Assembly (NCBI GenBank): GCA_017455685.1
Contig: JAFSZH010000075.1
Coordinates: 1 to 41,878, forward strand
Direction: 5' to 3'
DNA from: Oscillospiraceae bacterium
GTDB taxonomy: Bacteria; Bacillota; Clostridia; Oscillospirales; Oscillospiraceae
DNA length: 41,878 nucleotides
In this document: positions 26,079-31,373 of the stretch, piece after piece
Position numbering within the stretch: the first letter of the stretch is position 1
How the letters are laid out: every line of letters begins with the position of its first letter
Translations under genes and position numbers: made by a program
Notes under the pieces: generated by a model
What the model was told of the DNA's origin: nothing
Seen by the model: the letters and a program-made list of their open reading frames with translations, nothing else
The model's database searches: none

Positions 26079-27008
26079 TCAAATATGCCGTATGTTCTTG
26101 AACTCGGGGTTCTGCAGCTCCGTTTCCTTCATCATTTTCTTTATCCAGATCAGCAGTTCGGTGATCAAGGGCAGCTTGGACGAACTCTTGCGGTAGGAAA
26201 GATAGAGGGGATATCCATTCAGGGGGTAATCTGAAATGTGAATGTAACGGCGGCCCTCATACTGGTCGTTGATCAGCAGATTGTACGACGTGGTAAAAAC
26301 CAGAAGATTGCTGTTTCTCTTGAAGATCGTAAGGGAATCTCTTCCGGACTGGTACTTAACGTTCAGATTGATGTTGTTCCTGGTGAGAAATTTATCCAAA
26401 GTCTTCGTTTCATAGGTATCCAGATCCGTACGAACGAAGGAAAGCCCGTCCAGCTCCCGGAAAGCGATCTCTTTATCGTGAAAGAACGGATATTCCGCCG
26501 TTGCGGAAACGTAAAGCTGGTACTCCATGATAAAAACGCTTTCGATCCCGGGGTCTTCTTCGCTGAGCCTGTGAGCAGAGACCACGAGATCGCAGGCATT
26601 GTCCAGCAGCGCCTGCATGGTCGTATCCTCGTCAAAATGGGAGCGGACAAATTCCATGTTGCTGTGGGCGGACAGAAACAGCGGCATGATGAAGGCATAA
26701 AAATACATATTATCGCCGGCAATGGAAAGGATATCAGATTCTCCCTTGATCTTCTGGATGTCATTTTTGCATTTTTCCAGTTCGCCCATGACTTTTCTCG
26801 CGCAGGAATACAGCAGTTCACCGTACTCAGTGATCTCAAGAGTACGGTTGTTTCTGATGAACAATTTGACTCCGAACTCATCTTCCAGCTTTGTGAGTTT
26901 CTGGCTCAGCGCAGGCTGAGAAATGAAATGCTTTTCGGAGACCTTTCGCAGGTTCGGCTCTTCCACGATGGCGCAGAACTGTTCCAGATCAGAGATATTG
27001 ATATTCAT
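26079..27008 (-). CDS. LysR-family transcriptional regulator
   Basis: The 309-aa product starts at the ATG at 27008 after AGGGGGG; the frame is open 21 codons further but without a site. The N-terminal winged HTH reads DLEQFCAIVEEPNLRKVSEK then SQPALSQKLTKLEDEFGVKLF, the LysR signature. The C-terminal half is a periplasmic-binding-fold effector domain. It diverges from the URO-D/permease operon across a 319-nt AT-rich gap, the classical arrangement for a LysR activator of a neighbouring catabolic operon. The effector is unknown and is presumably the operon's substrate. Codon use is visibly less GC-biased than in the flanking genes. Confidence 0.93.
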   Translation of the reverse strand: MNINISDLEQFCAIVEEPNLRKVSEKHFISQPALSQKLTKLEDEFGVKLFIRNNRTLEITEYGELLYSCARKVMGELEKCKNDIQKIKGESDILSIAGDNMYFYAFIMPLFLSAHSNMEFVRSHFDEDTTMQALLDNACDLVVSAHRLSEEDPGIESVFIMEYQLYVSATAEYPFFHDKEIAFRELDGLSFVRTDLDTYETKTLDKFLTRNNINLNVKYQSGRDSLTIFKRNSNLLVFTTSYNLLINDQYEGRRYIHISDYPLNGYPLYLSYRKSSSKLPLITELLIWIKKMMKETELQNPEFKNIRHI

Positions 27009-27327
27009 GCCTTTTCCCCCCTGAAACAGTCTACTATACTTCGTCAAAATATGCAAATCCCGCCTTTCCACTTTTTCTATATAATGTAGGAAAAAAACTG
27101 TAAAATAGGAACAATCCTAAGGTCGAAAGGATCATGCCGAAGCGGGTACGCCGCCTTGTTATTGTCTATTTTGCACAGAATTGTTGCACGTTCTTTGCTA
27201 TTATTTATGAATGATAACTTCTTCTTACGATTATAATTTGTTTTTCTTATTGGAAATCACATTATTTATTTTGTAGAGTAGTATCAGAAGACGGCCGGCG
27301 TGCATCAAGAAAGAAAGGAGTGAACAA
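27009..27327. promoter_or_regulatory. Divergent control region of lysR and the URO-D operon
   Basis: This AT-rich gap holds a consensus TATAAT at 27232-27237 on the plus strand with no good -35 17 nt upstream (GAATGA), as expected of an activator-dependent promoter. A 19-nt dyad ATCCT-N9-AGGAT (27114-27132) and a TTAT-N9-ATAA dyad (about 27200-27217) are candidate LysR sites. TTGCAC is repeated directly at about 27171 and 27184. On the minus strand TTGCAT and TAGACT 17 nt apart could serve lysR. None of these is proven. Confidence 0.45.
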
Positions 27328-28467
27328 ATGGGAGAAAAAGACCTGCTGAATGAAAGAAGAAGGCTGTTCAACAACGCGTTTTCCATGGAGCATAACGAAA
27401 GAGTGCCTCTGTTTTCCAATTTTTGGACGTGGAAAATGCTTGACAGCGAATACCCGCTAAGACAGTCGTTGTCCGATTACGATCTGCTGGAGAAGCTGGT
27501 CAGTGATTTCCAGGAACGGTATCAGTTTGACTCTCACTTTGATCTGGGAACGAGAAACCCCATCCGCGTGGTCAACGCCCTTGGTACGGAAGGGTTCCAC
27601 CAGATCGACGATGAGAACAACTGTCTCGCCGTTTCCGATCACCAGATCATGGAAGCGTCGGAGTACAGGGACTACGTCAACAACCCGACGGCGTTTTTCT
27701 ACACGAAAGCTTTTGCCCGTTACTGTCCTGATCTGACAACGAAACAACTGAATGCCGCAGTGAAGGAATACAGGAAATTCACGGCGTTTTCTCAGAGGAT
27801 CACCAAAAAGTTCGCTGAGGATTATCAGTGTGTTCCCGTCTCGCCATATTACCTTAAGGAACCGTTCGAATACTTCTTCACTGCGCTGCGCGGGATCAAG
27901 GGAATGTCCATGGACATTCGAAGAAACTCCGGCGACCTGCTGGAAGCTCTGGACGCCATCTACGAAACGATCATGCTTCCGGGGATCGAAAGGGTACTGA
28001 AAATCGATACCAGTCCCTATCTGGGGGATGCGTACACCTCCTTTATGGGCTGGAGCATCCTCAACGAAAAACAGTTTGACAAATTCTACTGGCCGTACTT
28101 CATTCGTGTTTTTTCCAAAATGCTTGAGAACGACAAAAAGCTGTTCTTGATGTCGGAGGCCACGCTGCTCCGGTTTGCCGACCACTTCGATGATATTCCG
28201 AAGGGGCGGCTGATGGTCCAGCTGGAACAGGACGACATCTTTGCCGTGAGGAAACGTCTTCCCAACATGTCGATCGCAGGCGGAATGTCTCCCGAGCTCC
28301 TGGGCCGGGGGACCCCGGACGAATGCGTGGCGTACACGAAAAAGCTGATCGACGAGCTGGGCAACGGTTTTGTCCTCAGCCAGACGAAAATGATGTCCTA
28401 CGCCAGCGACTGCAAGCGGGAAAATCTTTTGGCGGTAAACAACTTTGCCTTAAACTACCGGACTTAA
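27328..28467 (+). CDS. URO-D-fold protein, paralog 1
   Basis: The 379-aa product has the late motif of the uroporphyrinogen decarboxylase / cobamide methyltransferase superfamily: AGGMSPELLGRGTPDECVAY then KKLIDELGNGFVLS and KRENLLAVNNF. It is not a normal HemE: the RQAGRYLPEY start and the terminal LGHG histidine are absent. The HxCG zinc site of MtaA/MtbA-type methyltransferases is also missing; the matching place reads LFLMSEATLLRFAD. The N-terminal stretch NFWTWKMLDSEYPLR and FDLGTRNP are shared with the paralog at 30008. The ATG follows AAAGGAG. It probably converts the compound brought in by the adjacent permease, but the reaction cannot be named. Confidence 0.8.
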   Translation: MGEKDLLNERRRLFNNAFSMEHNERVPLFSNFWTWKMLDSEYPLRQSLSDYDLLEKLVSDFQERYQFDSHFDLGTRNPIRVVNALGTEGFHQIDDENNCLAVSDHQIMEASEYRDYVNNPTAFFYTKAFARYCPDLTTKQLNAAVKEYRKFTAFSQRITKKFAEDYQCVPVSPYYLKEPFEYFFTALRGIKGMSMDIRRNSGDLLEALDAIYETIMLPGIERVLKIDTSPYLGDAYTSFMGWSILNEKQFDKFYWPYFIRVFSKMLENDKKLFLMSEATLLRFADHFDDIPKGRLMVQLEQDDIFAVRKRLPNMSIAGGMSPELLGRGTPDECVAYTKKLIDELGNGFVLSQTKMMSYASDCKRENLLAVNNFALNYRT

Positions 28468-28483
28468 TTGAGAGGTGAGGGAA

Positions 28484-29947
28484 ATGACAAAAACAAAAGA
28501 TAAAAGCACACTTCATATCATCATCGGCATTGCTATATTCCTGCTGATGCGCATCTTTATCCCCGCAACAAACGGTTTGACTTCCATCGGCGTCTCCGTT
28601 CTTTCCGTTTTCGTGGCGACCGTCTATCTGTGGATCACGATCGGGACCGGCTGGCCCAGCCTGCTGTGTATTCTGGGCATGATCCTGACCGGCGTTAAAA
28701 CCCCCGCGGAAATCTGGGCGGCCTCCTTCGGCAGCTGGCTGATCCCCTTCCTGATCTTCTGCTTCATGTTCTCCATCGCCCTGACGGAGACCGGATTCAT
28801 GCGTCGCATCATCACCTGGTTCATCACGAGAAAGTTTGTGGAAAACCGGCCTTGGGCATTCATCACCATGCTGCTGGTCGGCGAATACATTCTCGGTCTC
28901 ATCATGGACTGCACCGCCGAATCCGTGTTCGTGCTCCCGCTCTGCCTTGAGTTGTTCGAGATGCTGGAGTGCAAAAAAGAAGACAAGCTCGTAAAGGTCA
29001 TCCTGATCGGCTCCATCTGCTCTACGATCCTTTCCACCCTGGCCACCCCCATCGGCCACGTGATCCCCGTCATGTACATCGGCTACGCTCTGGCCGATCA
29101 CGGAGCTGCGGTTTCCCTGATTAAATACACCATCTGCGCTCTGCCCGCCTGCACCGTGACGCTGGCGCTGATGATCCTTTACTTCAAGTTCATCGTTCGG
29201 CCCGACGTTTCCAAGCTGCAGAACTATAACGTGGAGATGGCGCGGAAGAACCTGCCCCCCAAGACCAAGCAGGAGACCTACGTCGCTACGGCTTATTTCA
29301 TCTGCATCGCCCTCTGGATCCTGCCCGACCTGATCTCCGGGATCCTTCCCGGCGTGGCGTCCTACATCAGCGGGCTCGGATATGCCGTCGCCCCCGGTAT
29401 CGCGCTGTGCATCATGTGCATGGTCAAGGTCAACGGCAAGCCTGCGATGAACTATGTCGATCTGTTCTCCAAGGTGAACTGGAACACGATCATCCTGGTC
29501 TGCTGCATGAACACCCTCAGCTCCACGATCACTGCCGCGTCCACGGGCGTGTCCACCTGGCTGGGCAACGTGATGAGCCCGCTGGTCGCTTCCGTTTCCA
29601 GCGGCATGGTTATCGTGGCGATCGCCGCGATCTGGGATATCGTGCAGACGAACTTCATGTCCTGCTTCGCGACCGGCGCCATGGTTTACGCCGCTATCGT
29701 GCCCATGTGCATCGCATTCCCCGCGCTGGGCGTGTCTCCCGCCGCCATGACGCTGCTGATCGGCATGGGCTGCGGCTTCGGCGCTCTGATCCCCCCTGCT
29801 TCCGGTCCCCCGTCCGTGCTGATGTCTACGGATTGGTGCACCCCCTCCGACTCCTTCAAGATCACCCCGCCCATTATCGTCATCTTCATCCTCGCAACGA
29901 TCTTCCTCGCCTATCCGCTGTTCTCGGCCATGGTCGCTGCGCTTTAA
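28484..29947 (+). CDS. Ion-transporter superfamily (SLC13/DASS-like) permease
   Basis: The 487-aa product has about twelve membrane segments and the two-repeat layout of the ion transporter superfamily (DASS/SLC13, ArsB relatives). The second half includes NWNTIILVCCMNTLSSTITA, WDIVQTNFMSCFATGA and the proline-rich GALIPPASGPPSVLM, in the place of the DASS signature GFMLPVxTPPN. The SNT substrate motifs of carboxylate carriers are not intact (CTAES and QTNFMS appear instead), so the substrate may be unusual. An anionic substrate is the default inference. The ATG at 28484 follows GAGGTGAGG; it lies 16 nt after the first URO-D gene. Confidence 0.75.
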   Translation: MTKTKDKSTLHIIIGIAIFLLMRIFIPATNGLTSIGVSVLSVFVATVYLWITIGTGWPSLLCILGMILTGVKTPAEIWAASFGSWLIPFLIFCFMFSIALTETGFMRRIITWFITRKFVENRPWAFITMLLVGEYILGLIMDCTAESVFVLPLCLELFEMLECKKEDKLVKVILIGSICSTILSTLATPIGHVIPVMYIGYALADHGAAVSLIKYTICALPACTVTLALMILYFKFIVRPDVSKLQNYNVEMARKNLPPKTKQETYVATAYFICIALWILPDLISGILPGVASYISGLGYAVAPGIALCIMCMVKVNGKPAMNYVDLFSKVNWNTIILVCCMNTLSSTITAASTGVSTWLGNVMSPLVASVSSGMVIVAIAAIWDIVQTNFMSCFATGAMVYAAIVPMCIAFPALGVSPAAMTLLIGMGCGFGALIPPASGPPSVLMSTDWCTPSDSFKITPPIIVIFILATIFLAYPLFSAMVAAL

Positions 29948-29954
29948 CCCGCAT

Positions 29955-29990
29955 ATGCCAAACAGCGGTCTCCATGCCGCTGTCTGGCAT
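29955..29990 (+). other. Intercistronic stem-loop in the URO-D operon
   Basis: ATGCCA-A-ACAGCGG (29955-29968) pairs with CCGCTGT-C-TGGCAT (29977-29990) around an 8-nt loop, 13 pairs with one mismatch. No T run follows, so it is not a standard terminator. It lies between the permease stop and the second URO-D start and may tune mRNA stability or relative expression. Confidence 0.7.
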
Positions 29991-30007
29991 ACGAAAAGGA
30001 GGCCAAT

Positions 30008-31147
30008 ATGGAAGACAGAAGCTTGTTTTTGGAGAGAAAAACGATCATCAACAATGCGTTCGCGTGCAGGAAAAATACCCGGGTCCCTATCTTTTCAAAC
30101 TTCTGGACGTGGAAAATGCTGGATTCCGAGTATTCTCTTCGTGAAACGCTGGAAAACTACGATATCCTCTTCCGTGTGGTCTGTGACTTTCAGGAGCGAT
30201 ACCAGTTTGACTCCCTTTTCGATCTGGGTACGAGAAACCCGGTACGGGTAACGAAGGCGTTGGGAGACAACGAGTTCCACAAAATAGACGATGCGACGGA
30301 GTCGATCTACGTTCTGGACCATGAGATCATGTCCGAAGACGACTACGACTTGTTTATCAAGGATAAGACCGAGTTTTACTGGACGAAAGCCTTTGCGCGC
30401 TATTGCCCTGATCTTACGATCGGACAGCTGGACAACGCCATCAGGGAGTATCGTGATTTTCAAAAGTTCTCCGCGGGGATCGCGAAAAAGTTCGTGGAAG
30501 ACTACCAATGCGTTCCCGCGCCGATCAACTACCTGAAGCAGCCTTTCGAATACTTTTTCACGTCGCTCAGAGGAATGAAGGGCTGCGCCCTGGACCTGCG
30601 GCGGAAAAAAGACAAGGTGATCGAAGCCTGCAGGCACATCTACGAGACGATGACTCTCCCGCTCCTCAAGCGGGTGATCCAGCAGGACAACAGCGGTTTC
30701 ATGTGCGACATGTATACCGCTTTTCTGGGGCACAGTATTCTGAACACGAAACAATTCGGAGACATCTACTGGCCGGTCCTGAAAGGCTGCATGGACATGT
30801 TCGAGCAGAACGGAAAGCAGCTGCTGATCCAGTCCGAGAGTACGCTTCTGCGATTTGCGGATTTCTTCAAGGACGTGCCCGTCGGCCTGCTCGCTATCGA
30901 AATCGAACAGGACGACATCTTTGAAATGAGAAAAGCCCTGCCGCAGATCTGTTTTCTCGGAGGAATGCCGACGTATCTGCTCGGACGGGGAACCCCGGAA
31001 CAGTGCGTTGACTACACGAAGAAGCTGATCGACGGCATGGGAAACGGTTTTATCCTCAGTCAGGACAAAATGATCTCCTACCGAAAGGACTGCAAGAGAG
31101 AGAATCTCCTGGCGTCGAACAATTTTGCCAGAGAGTACAAGCTGTGA
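30008..31147 (+). CDS. URO-D-fold protein, paralog 2
   Basis: This 379-aa product aligns without gaps to the one at 27328, with roughly 55-57% identical residues over the first 60 positions counted by eye. Shared blocks are SNFWTWKMLDSEY, DFQERYQFDS, KAFARYCPDLT, EDYQCVP, EYFFT and LLGRGTP. It too lacks HemE and zinc-methyltransferase active residues. Keeping two full-length copies in one operon suggests either a heteromer or two related substrates. The ATG follows AAAAGGAGG. It belongs to the same operon as the permease, after a stem-loop. Confidence 0.8.
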   Translation: MEDRSLFLERKTIINNAFACRKNTRVPIFSNFWTWKMLDSEYSLRETLENYDILFRVVCDFQERYQFDSLFDLGTRNPVRVTKALGDNEFHKIDDATESIYVLDHEIMSEDDYDLFIKDKTEFYWTKAFARYCPDLTIGQLDNAIREYRDFQKFSAGIAKKFVEDYQCVPAPINYLKQPFEYFFTSLRGMKGCALDLRRKKDKVIEACRHIYETMTLPLLKRVIQQDNSGFMCDMYTAFLGHSILNTKQFGDIYWPVLKGCMDMFEQNGKQLLIQSESTLLRFADFFKDVPVGLLAIEIEQDDIFEMRKALPQICFLGGMPTYLLGRGTPEQCVDYTKKLIDGMGNGFILSQDKMISYRKDCKRENLLASNNFAREYKL

Positions 31148-31160
31148 AGGAGGCGGAACA

Positions 31161-31304
31161 ATGCCGGAAAACGAAGACAAAAAAGTCAGCTTTACCTATC
31201 CCGAGGGCTTTATCGAAGCGGCGAACAGTTTGGAGGGCTTCGATGATGAAGAGAGCCGGAAGGCATTCCTCGCCGGTTTCATCCCGTACATCGTCATGAT
31301 GTAA
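31161..31304 (+). CDS. 47-aa acidic microprotein of the URO-D operon
   Basis: A 47-codon frame begins at the ATG at 31161 with a strong AAGGAGG ten nt upstream and 13 nt after the second URO-D stop. It starts MPENEDKKVSFTYPEGFIEA, is acidic in the middle (GFDDEESRKAF) and ends hydrophobic (LAGFIPYIVMM). The stop is followed by the operon terminator. I recognise no family. The excellent ribosome site, tight spacing and lack of any other gene before the terminator support a real product, possibly a small subunit or regulator of the URO-D proteins or permease. Confidence 0.65.
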   Translation: MPENEDKKVSFTYPEGFIEAANSLEGFDDEESRKAFLAGFIPYIVMM

Positions 31305-31332
31305 AAAAGGTAGAGCACCCCCGAAACGGACT

Positions 31333-31373
31333 CCGCCCCTGCCCGAAACGGCAGGGGCGGTTTTTCTGTTTTT
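31333..31373 (+). terminator. Terminator of the URO-D operon
   Basis: CCGCCCCTGCC (31333-31343) pairs with GGCAGGGGCGG (31350-31360) around CGAAAC, followed by TTTTTCTGTTTTT. Strong rho-independent terminator. Confidence 0.93.

Follow-up and report, generated by a model that had tools for sequence, protein, structure and literature searches.

A LysR-linked operon of two URO-D-like proteins, a permease and a microprotein as a probable satellite module of corrinoid-dependent demethylation

We analyzed a 41,878-nucleotide stretch of Oscillospiraceae DNA (contig JAFSZH010000075.1 of assembly GCA_017455685.1, positions 1 to 41,878 of the forward strand; hereafter the window), focusing on an operon and its regulator at positions 26,079 to 31,373 (Table 1). 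We confirm the gene content described in the first-pass annotation: a LysR-type regulator that diverges from two 379-amino-acid (aa) URO-D-like paralogs aligning without gaps, here URO-D 1 and URO-D 2, with a permease between them and a 47-aa open reading frame (ORF) and a terminator behind. We put at roughly 70% the probability that this operon serves as a satellite module to a system for corrinoid-dependent demethylation, with the microprotein as a small subunit of the substrate:corrinoid methyltransferase (MT1).

Table 1. Genes and signals of the operon, in coordinates of the window
Feature	Position	Strand	Remarks
LysR-type regulator, 309 aa	26079..27008	-	divergent from operon
URO-D 1, MT1-like protein, 379 aa	27328..28467	+	
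DASS/CitMHS-type permease, 487 aa	28484..29947	+	490 aa if GTG 28475
Hairpin, no T run	29954..29991	+	in 60-bp gap between permease and URO-D 2; z-score -3.9, 0/200 shuffles as low
URO-D 2, second MT1-like protein, 379 aa	30008..31147	+	
Microprotein, YPEG class, 47 aa	31161..31304	+	ATG 31161; strong ribosome site upstream; 13 bp past URO-D 2 stop
Intrinsic terminator	31333..31360	+	

The regulator matches both the HTH_1 (58.9 bits) and LysR_substrate (49.7 bits) models of Pfam, the two URO-D proteins are 57% identical across 379 columns, and ATG 28484 is the likelier of the two possible permease starts. The terminator is strong (-33.6 kcal/mol, z-score -5.6, 0 of 200 shuffles as low). Gene spacing, previously described as tight, is not so throughout: the gap before URO-D 2 measures 60 bp and holds a hairpin (centroid -24.1 kcal/mol), which may perhaps set how abundant one half of the message is relative to the other. 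Neither terminator-like sites (6 against a shuffle mean of 7.6) nor promoter-like sites (3 against 3.9) are enriched, and none of the three promoter-like sites sits upstream of the operon. A search of the gap between LysR and the operon revealed no inverted repeats, and an Rfam scan of the window gave no match.

With PF01208, URO-D 1 scores 17.1 bits, below the Pfam cut-off of 23.9, and URO-D 2 matches nothing in Pfam, so that neither passes as a HemE uroporphyrinogen decarboxylase by this model. Among solved structures, the sole clear match of URO-D 1 is CdmB (E = 8.3e-13; runner-up 0.49), the chloromethane methyltransferase of Acetobacterium dehalogenans, for which experiments (PMC13222342) have established corrinoid methyltransferase activity, with CdmC as the corrinoid protein that receives the methyl group. 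The match reaches 3.1e-25 with a profile of 12 paralogs and 6.9e-52 with one of all 25 paralogs in the source genome, a profile that finds HemE structures only at 0.017 and 0.071. By this measure, the window proteins belong with the UroD-superfamily MT1 proteins of corrinoid-dependent methyltransferase systems, an enzyme type that is already known. Five residues (M1, P27, D68, K248 and E277 in URO-D 1 numbering) are invariant among all 25 paralogs, and since both window proteins keep them, neither looks degenerate there; the invariant Glu277 aligns with a Gln of CdmB.

Gene neighborhoods in other genomes point the same way. A corrinoid gene lies within 5 kb of 18 of 32 URO-D genes there, an MT2 gene of 11 and an activator gene of 4, counted as genes and not as independent loci. 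The 18 include L099 and L100, which are 46-47% identical to URO-D 1; L069, similarly close to URO-D 1, sits on a 5.4-kb contig without a corrinoid gene. Together with the CdmB match, these neighborhoods leave the earlier statement that the operon does not match the methyltransferase systems without support. They also make it improbable that the URO-Ds, instead of being corrinoid methyltransferases, put the URO-D fold to use in decarboxylating or cleaving an anionic compound, as a decarboxylase or lyase: such an enzyme would suit a PF01208 score under the cut-off, the lack of a corrinoid gene nearby and a ratio of 25 paralogs to two corrinoid proteins, but not the preference of the profile for CdmB over HemE or the corrinoid genes beside relatives as close as L099 and L100.

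The source assembly (1.89 Mb in 85 contigs, 72% complete) encodes two B12-binding (PF02310) corrinoid proteins, two RACo-type activators and two proteins of the pterin-binding kind, namely a MetH-like protein and an MT2 (NF005719, 280.9 bits; cut-off 259). The MT2 and an AcsV-type activator (902 bits with the AcsV model; cut-off 800) each lie within 5 kb of a different URO-D paralog. As described earlier, the surroundings of the operon hold no corrinoid protein, MT2 or activator gene; all three kinds are present elsewhere in the genome. The 5-kb surroundings of the 25 URO-D genes of this genome showed no corrinoid gene in the stretches read, and it is because of this contrast with the 18 of 32 relatives elsewhere that we read the operon as a satellite, which probably uses its partners in trans. 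Since the assembly is incomplete, the module might instead have its own corrinoid protein, missing from the sequence, with nothing shared in trans; some contigs do end near URO-D genes. We consider this somewhat unlikely, as a dedicated partner would have to be absent beside all 25 URO-D genes, where relatives often have one.

Some loci of the same genome deserve a remark. One corrinoid protein is encoded at L033:3494-4132. The second (L034, contig C29) adjoins a LysR gene, with an MttB-family methyltransferase (PF06253) a few genes off. A 632-aa MetH-like protein (L138:388-2286, contig C67) has an NCBIfam match that stops after the pterin domain, so that a separate corrinoid protein may serve it. 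Lastly, a stand-alone 244-aa relative of the beta subunit of carbon monoxide dehydrogenase/acetyl-CoA synthase (CODH/ACS; L140:331-1065, contig C42) scores above the cut-off for PF03598 and far below that of NCBIfam.

Of the earlier interpretation, regulated uptake and conversion is supported by the finding that both DASS genes matched in the source genome by the window permease adjoin two URO-D genes, and that a Pfam-verified permease (DASS, GntP, MFS, SSF or CitMHS type) lies near at least 13 of the 25 URO-Ds; the neighbors of the other 12 were partly checked with Pfam, and several have no evident permease. An anionic substrate is plausible, since the window permease passes the Pfam cut-off for a DASS transporter (Na_sulph_symp, 75.6 bits; cut-off 27), but this permease is divergent, scoring 86.4 bits against the 198.6 needed for the NCBIfam dass model TIGR00785. 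It has no relative at E <= 0.01 among solved structures in the PDB and no close homolog in the congeners. As to co-conservation, proposed as a check of the module, the four-gene operon was not found elsewhere, and the permease (E <= 1e-100) occurs in 1 of 400 family genomes, the source genome itself. As a whole, the earlier reading is partly supported, and its most informative part is the microprotein.

In the mechanism that we propose, the permease would import a methylated, probably anionic, compound, and LysR would sense this ligand and switch the operon on. URO-D 1 and URO-D 2 would act as substrate-specific MT1 enzymes, perhaps for two demethylation positions or two variants of the substrate, and transfer the methyl group to a corrinoid protein, from which MT2 would pass it to tetrahydrofolate while the AcsV-type activase keeps the cobalt reduced. 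Corrinoid protein, MT2 and activase would be encoded elsewhere and serve many modules. The microprotein would be a detached C-terminal module that completes MT1, perhaps as a lid or as the surface at which the shared corrinoid protein docks.

The case for the microprotein begins with its linkage to URO-D genes. An ORF of 35-60 aa that starts 4-24 bp past the stop follows 21 of the 25 URO-D genes of the source genome, as compared to 4 of the 268 non-URO-D genes on those stretches, with all genes called by an in-house script; in other genomes the same rule picks out 26 of 37 URO-Ds and 2 of 226 other genes. These control genes reject the idea of chance small ORFs. The 21 ORFs encode 37-58 aa, have a ribosome site and start 8-18 bp past the URO-D stop. 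Four genes lack such an ORF. Three of them are long forms with a C-terminal tail, and the fourth is URO-D 1, which shares its operon with a URO-D that does have a microprotein; URO-D 1 is thus the sole paralog among the 25 that lacks both its own microprotein and a long tail. The 11 misses among the 37 comprise four URO-Ds with an ORF just outside the rule (L093, L094, L070 and L108), a long form of 461 aa in L106, the second URO-D of L069, and five distant URO-Ds (L096, L097, L098 and one each in L106 and L114).

The microprotein is protein-coding. Between L093 and L094, 16 of its codons differ, all synonymously, with no amino-acid change, and three further pairs have fewer amino-acid changes per site than silent ones. 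The more alike two URO-Ds are, the more alike are their microproteins (r 0.76, 47 pairs; 0 of 5000 permutations), a pattern that speaks for stable co-inheritance and not for binding. A profile of the window class (YPEG) run on 381 class genomes gave 20 places at E <= 0.01 in 10 genomes, 16 of them with a URO-D beside. All 14 places at E <= 1e-3 adjoin a URO-D gene; 11 of these places are rows of the profile itself and 3 are independent. Of the nine places that are not rows, five lie beside a URO-D; the other four (E 0.0025 to 0.0083) have none next to them, and one of the four is where a contig ends. Searched against Pfam and NCBIfam, the 17 YPEG-class members belong to no family (best matches 0.0046 and 0.087, at chance level).

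What the microprotein may be is suggested by the long forms. In the source genome, three URO-Ds of 455-463 aa, against about 370-400 aa for the others, carry their excess mainly at the C-terminus and have no microprotein. In a second set of URO-Ds, all 10 short proteins (383-388 aa) have a microprotein and none of 20 long ones (452-466 aa) does; here 30 of 38 places were given a locus, the 30 proteins being 36 rows minus six alternative starts, before whose removal the count for 360-415 aa was 9 of 10. This set overlaps the earlier loci (L141 is L032, L147 the long form in L106, L155 is L027). The tails align with the microproteins of the WEEY class over 44 columns (probability 98.4, E 6.2e-15, score 66.6, against at most 15.7 in 200 shuffles) and, by this profile comparison, the two are homologous. 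On the tree, the long forms make up one side of a weakly supported branch inside the group of split WEEY-class proteins. In the WEEY class, the C-terminal module is thus either split off or fused; for the window class the same arrangement would be an extension by position only, because it resembles neither the tails nor the WEEY class.

It is unlikely that the microprotein, instead of being a subunit, serves as a leader peptide or acts on the enzyme as a regulator, chaperone or inhibitor. Its small size and the little similarity between some classes would accord with such roles, and MtrI (PMC12774963) and MtrR, two small proteins of the methanogen Methanosarcina mazei, reportedly act on a methyltransferase complex. 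A leader peptide, however, would not account for the amino-acid conservation in the close pair L093/L094, and the covalent fusion of homologs of one class to the enzyme suggests a permanent part. The classes are partly connected to each other: YPEG is linked to class D (E 2.7e-7) and C to D (2.3e-5), and these three classes share no match with the WEEY class or with the tails. The candidate view of all classes as one family was only partly upheld, with the remaining class pairs weak or at shuffle level.

The abundance of URO-Ds in the source genome (25 places at E <= 1e-3) is not a product of a single recent expansion, an explanation that we rejected since the paralogs are scattered over the tree; eight congeners have 0-4 relatives each. 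Judging from the tree, the paralogs are a collection of old subfamilies. Such large sets are not unique, as six of the nine other class genomes with a match hold 20 to 39 first-look URO-D candidates, and A. dehalogenans is said, in the accessible part of PMC13222342, to encode 26 putative methyltransferase systems. At E <= 1e-30, URO-D 1 has relatives in 7 of the 400 genomes of the family and in 10 of the 391 of the class, the source genome being counted in both. For the tree, the five distant URO-Ds were left out, L093, L094 and L070 were assigned the state 'split' by hand, and L108 was kept as 'none'.

A tandem URO-D pair is also found at L069, in a Coriobacteriales metagenome-assembled genome (JAITUO010000001.1), where one microprotein lies between the two and the pair apparently arose by a duplication independent of the window pair; both tandem pairs of the window clade have one microprotein per two URO-Ds. 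We rejected a shared origin of the pairs: separate duplications are likely because the two URO-Ds of each pair are sisters (support 99 and 98). The third tandem pair of the source genome (L027:5577-11078, contig C72) consists of long-form URO-Ds flanked by CitMHS-type and MFS permeases. Beyond these genomes, a scan of genome contigs with URO-D 1 gave 55 stretches, none confirmed, viral-contig scans gave nothing useful, and plasmid scans gave one partial Sporomusa termitida match only (34% of the query, 29.5%).

Several observations weigh against a satellite module with the microprotein as MT1 subunit. Besides the lack of a corrinoid gene near any URO-D of this genome, its PF03598 match is a 244-aa protein and not a full acetyl-CoA synthase, which falls short of a full CODH/ACS. 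Several URO-Ds lack their own microprotein: URO-D 1, the second one of L069 and five more distant relatives (L096-L098 and two more). CdmB is active with CdmC, with no small subunit mentioned in the accessible part of PMC13222342. The correlation between microprotein and URO-D similarity would also arise from co-inheritance by itself. The branch joining the fused forms in a single origin is weakly supported (51 in one tree, 75/45 in another from which two long-branch rows were excluded), and comparing the YPEG class with the tails (probability 0.3) and with the WEEY class (1.4) reveals no likeness. We hold only tentatively, at somewhat below even odds, the broader idea that an entire branch of the URO-D methyltransferases consists of two-piece enzymes, each requiring a C-terminal module of ~45 residues that is a separate microprotein in most lineages, is fused in one, and docks the enzyme to a corrinoid carrier used in common.

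Which methoxylated, halogenated or methylated compounds anaerobes can use depends in part on URO-D methyltransferases. If gene finders and expression constructs omit a microprotein that many of these enzymes require, the subunit could be supplied, and some failed assays would perhaps be explained. The source genome, with 25 URO-Ds and few corrinoid proteins, is a testable case of one carrier for many substrate enzymes; were the two-piece idea true, about two corrinoid proteins could suffice for a single genome to run at least 25 interchangeable substrate modules, as a hub-and-spoke demethylation network. A literature search whose coverage mostly excluded subscription journals found no description of the linked microprotein family, its fused counterpart or an arrangement in which many MT1 genes lie apart from a small number of carriers, and these are, by that search, what is new here.

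Among the closest known systems is the Cdm system (cdmBCA), which shares a URO-D-fold MT1 with the window and supplies the sole solved chain that the window profiles match well; cdmB sits with cdmC and cdmA, whereas the window MT1 genes have no adjoining corrinoid or MT2 gene. The O-demethylases MtvB, OdmB, VdmB and MtoB are, as far as the accessible part of PMC13222342 describes them, of the same UroD superfamily and also transfer methyl groups from MT1 to a corrinoid protein; the likeness is by description, and in contrast to them the window MT1 genes lie apart from corrinoid genes and come with a microprotein. Type 1 mlp clusters, mostly from Firmicutes, resemble the window in having several URO-D methyltransferase homologs per operon and, in the accessible part of PMC10418091, keep corrinoid and activator genes together. 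The window operon contains neither a corrinoid protein nor a Ram/RACE gene, and any equivalence between the invariant Glu277 of the window family and a Cys of the His-Cys-Cys zinc ligands of the type 1 mlp proteins would be conjectural. Finally, MtrI and MtrR are, like the proposed role of the microprotein, small proteins that act on a one-carbon methyltransferase; they are likened by description and belong to a different enzyme complex, whereas the small protein of the window is linked gene by gene to its enzyme.
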